Origin: an uncultured Prevotellaceae bacterium
GTDB taxonomy: Bacteria > Bacteroidota > Bacteroidia > Bacteroidales > Muribaculaceae
NCBI GenBank assembly: GCA_900318645.1
Contig: ONLH01000025.1
Span: 28,599-92,598, forward strand
Reading direction: 5' to 3'
Length of the DNA stretch: 64,000 nt
Shown one piece after another: positions 9,520 through 9,793 of the stretch. A program made the translations under genes and the position numbers. A model generated the notes under the pieces. The model had not been told where the DNA came from and did no database searches. It saw nothing but the letters and a program-made list of their open reading frames with translations. Every line of letters begins with the position of its first letter. Position 1 is the stretch's first letter.

Positions 9520-9793
9520 AACTTCGAAGAAGTTAGCGGTTCGAAGAACCGATTTCAATCAGTAAGACCATGCAAGAACCTCGAAGAGGTTCGCAGCTTG
9601 GTCCATGAGCAGAGTCTTATCAGTGCCTCGAAGAGGAACTTTGTGATTGACAGGCTTTGGGCGGATGTGGAAGTTCGTCTACGACGCACTTTCCACTTAC
9701 TATGGCGATCACCAAGCTGCGCTCATCTTCGATGAGCTTGCATGGTGTTTTCCATAAAAGTCGAGTCTTCGACCCGACCTGCCTCTACGAGGC
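9520..9793. repeat. Inverted element of eight C(GNA)G triloop hairpins
   Basis: In the 628-bp gap between susF and the amylase gene, four short perfect or near-perfect hairpins on the left (9520-9534, 9537-9551, 9566-9603, 9622-9640) are mirrored by four on the right (9672-9690, 9710-9747, 9760-9778, 9781-9793) around a 31-base centre. Read on the plus strand for the left arm and the minus strand for the right, every loop is GAA or GTA closed by C-G. Gaps between hairpins are nearly the same in both arms (2, 14, 18 versus 2, 12, 19). The third pair shares ACCATGCAAG and CGCAGCTTGGT flanks while four stem pairs are all replaced with compensation (AACC/GGTT versus CTCA/TGAG). No coding potential is convincing here. 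I do not recognise this element. Confidence 0.8.

Follow-up and report, generated by a model that had tools for sequence, protein, structure and literature searches.

A gene-less pair of hairpin arrays inside a small inverted-repeat element, probably the ends of an IS200-like single-strand transposon

Several kinds of palindromic repeat have been described that resemble the locus reported here. The foot of canonical REPs is GT[AG]G, according to the available parts of two accounts (PMC6006769; PMC8266576). TIRtrons (TIRYT), in the sections of PMC3733652 that treat them, are tyrosine transposase genes lying between long inverted repeats, some of which are self-complementary and some of which belong to repeated families, with no obvious correlation between a gene and its repeats. 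The same sections describe CGTC-tagged REPs, palindromic repeats reported, in part from Bacteroidetes, without a dedicated transposase. In the accessible text and tables of Quentin et al. (2018, PMC6006769), the transposases of subclass 1.2 have the Y motif Y---Q--HH, a length of about 148 aa, a distribution in Bacteroidetes and a low copy number; they are tabulated without REP and described as generally lacking IS200-type structures. REP counts for three Bacteroidota species are given in PMC12306157, in the available portion of which the word transposase is absent. In the open-licence literature, as far as its texts were available, we found no paper tying subclass 1.2 to hairpin arrays.

Here, we analyse an array of eight hairpins between susF and an amylase gene in the window, i.e., the whole 64-kb stretch of DNA that was studied, whose source bacterium has relatives among rumen species. 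We consider it probable that this feature is the gene-less pair of hairpin ends of a TnpA_Y1 (HUH, IS200-like) single-strand transposon, carried inside a small element with terminal inverted repeats (TIRs).

The window element and its copies

The first-pass annotation had described eight mini-hairpins in mirror order, and their positions, loops, and spacings are all borne out by the sequence (Table 1). The hairpin coordinates were right, but the extent proposed for the element (9520..9793) was too small. Its ends, which we defined from termini in the own and related genomes (13 left, 20 right), place the array between two imperfect TIRs of 12 bp. Both arms match one covariance model over their full length, both being among the 53 rows from which that model was built.

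Table 1. Features of the window element and its immediate surroundings.
Feature	Position	Strand	Details
Terminator-like hairpin, separate, after susF	9443-9476		
Whole miniature element (MITE-like)	9504-9884		381 bp; basis: copies in own and related genomes
Left terminal inverted repeat	9504..9515	+	CATTAGTGTACG
Arm 1, four hairpins	9517..9643	+	R1 covariance-model match 118.3 bits
Hairpin 1	9520..9534	+	Loop GAA
Hairpin 2	9537..9551	+	Loop GAA
Hairpin 3	9566..9603	+	T.T mismatch in outer stem; internal loop; inner stem variable; loop GAA
Hairpin 4	9622..9640	+	AGT/ACT, G.A mismatch, CCTC/GAGG, loop GAA
25-bp spacer	9644..9668	.	Site of transposase gene in gene-bearing unit
Arm 2, four hairpins	9669..9797	-	R1 covariance-model match 130.4 bits
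Hairpin 4'	9672..9690	-	Loop GTA on - strand
Hairpin 3'	9710..9747	-	Loop GAA on - strand
Hairpin 2'	9760..9778	-	Loop GAA on - strand, one A.C mismatch
Hairpin 1'	9781..9793	-	Loop GTA on - strand
Right terminal inverted repeat	9873..9884	-	CGGACACTAATG

The hairpin array is beyond chance. In seven of the eight hairpins, the C(GNA)G or C(TNC)G stem is perfect over 4 bp or more; the exception is the mismatched hairpin 2'. The window contains five C(GNA)G-type hairpins whose stems reach 6 bp or more, all within the element; at a threshold of 4 bp, 7 out of 17 fall in it, and Markov-resampled windows contain 7.8 +/- 3.1 such stems against these 17. Folded as DNA, the stretch 9515-9800 reaches -62.1 kcal/mol on the plus strand and -62.8 kcal/mol on the minus strand, whereas the shuffled means are -36.4 and -35.3 (z of -7.26 and -7.73; 0/200 shuffles on each strand). 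In the whole-strand minimum-energy folds, hairpins 3 and 3' pair with each other and not locally. The window copy lies between the terminator-like hairpin and the upstream region of the amylase gene. A TGCAAACGATTGCA-like sequence upstream of this gene (10045), kept in most of six aligned relatives, is a possible operator.

The own genome contains three full copies of the element, one internal partial copy, and ten half-copies at contig ends, a pattern expected from a repeat that breaks the assembly. Since five of these are left halves and five are right halves, there are at least five more copies. DNA similarity to a full copy was found in 72 of the 101 genomes of the genus, and a match to the arm model in 89 of them, with at most 34 candidates scored per genome. 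When 150 candidates were scored, at least 82, 79, and 12 arms were counted in G008, G072, and G046, respectively, i.e., the many dispersed copies that characterise REP-like repeats. Across the family (119 genomes, including the own genome and six others of its genus), matches occur in 29 genomes and 18/30 genera, many of them weak. One stretch from another genus of the family (G144:C17:69399-69944) has four weak arm-model matches on the same strand, spaced by ~147 bp. The exact hairpin-3 pattern had 0 hits in viral contigs.

The suggestion that the element is mobile is supported by the TIR-bearing copies at different places and by the aligned relatives that lack it. Genes resembling susF and the amylase gene lie within one retrieved stretch in 11/22 relatives, and the element is absent between them in all six syntenic relatives that were aligned. 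The annotation had proposed a search for further copies with conserved flanks, and such copies exist. Direct repeats of 8-10 bp flank the copies at L002, L022, L025, and L038, and also two elements (L130, L133) that have the TIR of the window element and no array. A strict script finds a direct repeat of at least 8 bp in 4/10 distinct elements; a direct-repeat score of at least 7 is reached in 7/18 rows (both orientations counted) versus 2.3% of mismatched controls. We looked for a target duplication at the window copy and found none. The outer flanks of L003 and L025, from two genomes, are similar, so this insertion was probably inherited. At L012:1500-2150, two starts of the window's element stand ~490 bp apart, with a lower-scoring arm pair of another hairpin type between them.

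Hairpin arms beside a Y1 transposase gene

At G000:C48, in the own genome, like arms lie on both sides of a gene for a protein of 147 aa, the downstream arm starting a few bases past the stop codon. The protein matches Pfam Y1_Tnp (3.6e-22). Among the NCBIfam models, it scores 61.6 bits with the IS200 family (cut-off 55) and 25.8 with the REP-associated family (cut-off 80). We used the AlphaFold2 model of a 94%-identical relative (pLDDT 91.5) in Foldseek searches, which retrieved the transposases of ISDra2 and IS608, including complexes with hairpin DNA, and TnpA_REP (4er8), all with a TM of about 0.6. The Y motif is YIKNQREHH (consensus of 24 relatives: YIKNQKEHH) and conforms to that of subclass 1.2. 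The HuH and W motifs of the own lineage are NHVH and WG, versus DH[IV]H and WQ in the subclass; among 18 more distant rows, DH[IV]H is found in 15 and WQ in 9. Size and copy number also fit, the own genome having three hits (100, 58, and 38% identical), and the relatives are mostly Bacteroidota by title among the 80 of 152 that were listed. The tabulated lack of REP does not hold here, mirror hairpins being regular beside these genes. We class the gene as that of a Y1 HUH transposase of subclass 1.2 type (tnpA below). Related proteins appear in two plasmid records (~35% identity) and one phage record (29%).

The association is general in the genus and extends well beyond it. A motif scan, whose pattern required the cores of hairpins 3 and 4 (H3 and H4; hairpins 1 and 2 are called H1 and H2 below), found an arm on 53/60 sides of 30 genus tnpA loci. 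The sides with no core match are L058L, L066L, L079L, L079R, L072R, L073R, and L076L, of which the last three offer merely 7, 125, and 5 nt of sequence. We surveyed hairpin polarity at 107 distinct loci, 43 closer and 64 distant ones (identity of 53.2% or less; Chryseobacterium, Chitinophagaceae, Cyclobacteriaceae, and others). The C(GNA)G hairpins cluster in mirror polarity inside the 260 nt next to the gene, and few lie past 390 nt. The closer loci have 74 GNA versus 4 TNC upstream, and 103 TNC versus 1 GNA downstream. At the distant loci, the expected and opposite polarities number 51 versus 4 upstream and 59 versus 13 downstream, where the bias does not extend past the first 130 nt (9 versus 9 at 130-260 nt). 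At least one hairpin of expected polarity is present in 53/64 distant loci, and on both sides in 24/64. Hence, GNA hairpins of mirror polarity adjoin these genes well beyond the genus. A dispersal pattern exceeded its reversed control in two Chryseobacterium genomes (13 versus 3, 18 versus 1) and two Cyclobacteriaceae (14 versus 3, 11 versus 1); a third Chryseobacterium gave no excess (2 versus 6). Two Chryseobacterium genomes (G101 and G104, those of L229 and L241) have dispersed copies of CCCGAAGGGTTCAA, several of them paired 65-74 bp apart.

The surroundings of tnpA bear on two other readings of the hairpins. By eye, many rows show TTTG...TAnnTTTG between the upstream arm and tnpA, a motif that we take to be promoter-like; the upstream arm is therefore probably outside the mRNA. 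GNA hairpins are known from the promoters of the N4 virion RNA polymerase, and the array might by analogy be a single-strand promoter or, as the first-pass annotation allowed, a structured RNA. The Rfam scan of the window, which matched just a tRNA, lends the RNA reading no support, and the inward position of the promoter-like motif also counts against these readings; we regard either version as highly improbable. Alternatively, the hairpins might be kept for a host role, e.g., as terminators, insulators, or stabilisers of mRNA 3' ends, their link with TnpA being historical. The intergenic site after susF, the closeness of the own-genome downstream arm to the tnpA stop codon, and the persistence of arms in genomes with no tnpA hit would suit such a role, which is nevertheless doubtful: long T-runs after the stems were not seen by eye, the window has its separate terminator-like hairpin, and GNA loops predominate at each of the four hairpins, beyond what a terminator needs. 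Arms were found in 16/20 genus genomes without a tnpA hit and 73/81 with one, many of these genomes being incomplete MAGs, so the presence of arms and that of tnpA are not clearly linked.

Inverted repeats of at least five unrelated kinds also enclose arms: GGGTGTGTCATAATTC in G008, ACCCGTTGGCGGAATTAA in G006 and G046 (with a variant in G028), GAGGCTGTTGCAAAAC in the same two genomes, CTGTTCAGCGATT-like repeats in G072 and G038, and, in G017, a single pair of a further kind. An inverted repeat scoring at least 11 was found at 51 of the 88 array loci with enough flank (versus 1.1% of shuffled flanks), and 37 fell below this threshold; both figures are rough because the former include GC-rich repeats (L144, L146) and the latter window-family TIRs missed by the script. 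We retrieved 20 single-arm elements from G008, 18 of them script-matched at both ends, and saw no target duplication by eye. In two (L117, L124), one flank is a short inverted repeat of the other, as would result from insertion into a palindrome. The window's TIR, (C/T)ATTAGTGTCCGG, also encloses other interiors, some with long GC-rich inverted modules (L130-L135, L141, L142). No transposase was recognised by eye in the ORF lists of two such array-less stretches (L131, L135), and the TIR elements' own transposase, presumably of DDE type from an insertion sequence with the TIR CATTAGTGTCCGG, was not found in this data set.

The window feature might instead be an ordinary TIR miniature element, whose palindromes are incidental, matter only to the element's own movement, and are unrelated to the Y1 transposase. 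The TIRs and direct repeats, the array-less elements with an identical TIR, and the arms in genomes with no tnpA hit all agree with this. It would leave unexplained the like arms on the 53 tnpA sides, the enrichment confined to the flanks of the gene, and the arms between unrelated kinds of inverted repeats; we consider it unlikely.

Covariation of the stems and movement of the units

We analysed covariation in 53 rows (52 distinct), i.e., 51 tnpA-flanking arms and the two window arms, having excluded L071R and L077L, which are truncated or without outer hairpins. The structure, 34 pairs, was written from one row. Overall, 95.7% of the stem cells are paired, 22/34 pairs have changed on both sides, and the covariation score is 0.346 versus 0.109 when shuffled. 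Not one of the five measures is equalled in 500 shuffles, and each of them falls when the partners are slid. Because the scan pattern required the H3 and H4 cores, the nine pairs that never vary and the G.A mismatch of H4 (53/53 rows) owe part of their conservation to this choice; the pattern put no constraint on H1, H2, or the inner stem of H3.

Loci that share a neighbour gene allow a closer comparison. Fourteen have the same DUF6249 neighbour and, for this reason, probably descend from one place; the tnpA unit there may have been domesticated. In their upstream arms, compensated cells number 23 (shuffled mean 6.7, maximum 14) and broken cells 12 (shuffled mean 37.9, minimum 28); in their downstream arms, the respective counts are 8 (1.7, maximum 6) and 9 (14.4, minimum 11). 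The random stem drift that the annotation named as a counter-argument is thus not seen at linked loci, where pairing is kept, and the proposed selection for folding is supported by the covariation there and in the whole set. In the window's own element family, compensated and broken cells number 3 (shuffled mean 0.4, maximum 3) and 14 (17.4, minimum 13) in the 26 left arms, and 4 (0.4, maximum 2) and 10 (14.6, minimum 11) in the 21 right arms. Covariation is weak in this family because its stems hardly change: the divergence of left and right arms is 0.021 and 0.025 in stems versus 0.128 and 0.095 in unpaired columns.

Complementary stems might also arise by mutation alone, through template switching that corrects quasi-palindromes, without any selection. 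H1 and H2 are often perfect, and three loci (L055, L029, L032) have the H3 apex turned from GNA to TNC while the stem is preserved, which looks like an inversion of the tip, with TTT in a fourth (L030); such apices suggest hairpin-templated changes. The fourth hairpin of G008 arms, GTGCTTCGAAGATGCAC by eye, is without the G.A mismatch, which is in line with such correction. Yet the T.T mismatch of H3 is kept in 51/53 rows, where the pattern permitted T or A, and its internal loop is AA in 50/53, which the pattern did not require. The G.A mismatch, being required by the pattern, is no evidence on this point. We give mutation alone a low probability.

The fourth hairpin also distinguishes the two ends of some units. 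At C-type loci (those with an outer H3 pair C-G, L078 counted among them), it is GTC/GAC in 16/17 upstream arms and CTC/GAG in 14/16 downstream arms; at G-type loci, it does not separate the two sides. In the window, arm 1 has CCTC/GAGG, as do most arms downstream of tnpA, and arm 2 has CGTC/GACG, as do most C-type arms upstream of it. Read on the minus strand, the window therefore presents an upstream-type arm, the 25-bp spacer, and a downstream-type arm, like the unit minus its gene. The outer H3 pair of arm 1 is G-C and not C-G, so the element may instead combine two sources.

The array-gene-array stretch occurs twice in each of the three genomes examined for unit copies. The G079 copies are 95% identical over 584 bp; they start just outside hairpin 1 with different left flanks, and both end at contig ends on the right. 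Those of G086 are 99.8% identical over 617 bp, one beginning only at hairpin 4, and some similarity extends past the right arm, so a longer piece may have been duplicated. Those of G152 are 93.5% identical over 801 bp, with different flanks on both sides. Viewed by eye, the ends of the copies define no common target of the IS200 type. In one unit (L218:2000-2240), hairpin 3 of one arm carries an insertion of ~91 bp; apart from this, the unit matches L217 at 99.8% identity over 617 bp.

Proposed mechanism and comparison with known systems

Together, these results suggest that the arms are marks read by the transposase that also ride in other mobile elements. The arms would fold when the DNA is single-stranded, e.g., on the lagging strand. 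The transposase would read the GNA loops, internal loops, and feet of the folded arms, and would cut and rejoin there, moving arms or whole arm-gene-arm units. Arms within TIR elements would be amplified separately by the transposases of those elements, presumably of DDE type, and it is probably such a transposition that brought the window copy between susF and the amylase gene. Against this reading stand the arms in genus genomes with no tnpA hit, the missing target duplication at the window copy, the failure of the unit ends to define a common target, the possible domestication at the DUF6249-linked loci, the possible duplication of a longer piece in G086, the array loci below the inverted-repeat threshold, the loss of downstream polarity past 130 nt at the distant loci, and the search for the presumed DDE partner, which did not find it. 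Of the roles first proposed for the element, single-stranded DNA as the working form gains indirect support, since a Y1 HUH transposase gene regularly accompanies the arms, and a protein-binding array is plausible. More tentatively, and with somewhat less than even confidence, we propose that throughout Bacteroidota, transposases of subclass 1.2 drive an overlooked REP-like family of GNA arrays with distinct left and right ends, for which unrelated TIR elements act as a second engine, the two kinds of transposon ends being nested within a single mobile element.

If true, the arms would be candidate cognate DNA for transposases that are tabulated without repeats, whose activity could then be tested with defined substrates. 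They are a clear case of a DNA hairpin signal whose loops and most bulges stay constant while its stem letters vary freely, and may explain some of the anonymous hairpin repeats of rumen and environmental Bacteroidota. Arrays repeatedly found inside unrelated TIR elements would be an unusual spreading route for REP-like repeats.

Among known systems, the IS200/IS605 elements (IS608, ISDra2) share with the gene-bearing unit the Y1 HUH catalytic fold, hairpins at both ends, and, for some units, multiple copies; here, however, the arms are mutually inverted, with the GNA form on opposite strands at the two ends, and no fixed target was defined for the units. The window element resembles the MITEs of DDE insertion sequences in being short and gene-less and in having TIRs and, in several copies, direct repeats, but what it carries inside is a hairpin array found elsewhere on the flanks of a different type of transposase. 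CGTC-tagged REPs are also palindromic and also occur in Bacteroidetes, but by their description in the available sections, with which the comparison is made, they have loops of 4 or 5 and an unpaired CGTC tag. Relative to subclass 1.2 as tabulated in the accessible part of PMC6006769, the difference is the regular presence of flanking hairpins.

REPtrons (TnpA_REP, RAYT) are closer, since they too comprise a Y1 HUH gene flanked by inverted repeats that form bulged hairpins, and like REPs and REPINs, the arms are dispersed as singles and inverted doublets. The units described here differ in having four hairpins, mostly with GNA triloops, per arm of ~129 nt, and a protein of subclass 1.2 type and not of class 2; the A1 consensus of the arms has no GT[AG]G foot, and the GTGC before hairpin 4 was required by the search pattern. 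By its description, though not by comparison of TIR sequences, the gene-bearing unit fits the TIRtrons, with a tyrosine transposase gene between two inverted arms of ~129 nt that are not GTAG REPs. As for the published TIRtrons, the gene and its repeats are not clearly correlated. What sets the present unit apart is that each of its repeats consists of four GNA hairpins in a set order whose stems covary, that its protein belongs to the subclass 1.2 type, and that arms ride in TIR miniature elements. The element remains a variant of the known REPtrons and TIRtrons.
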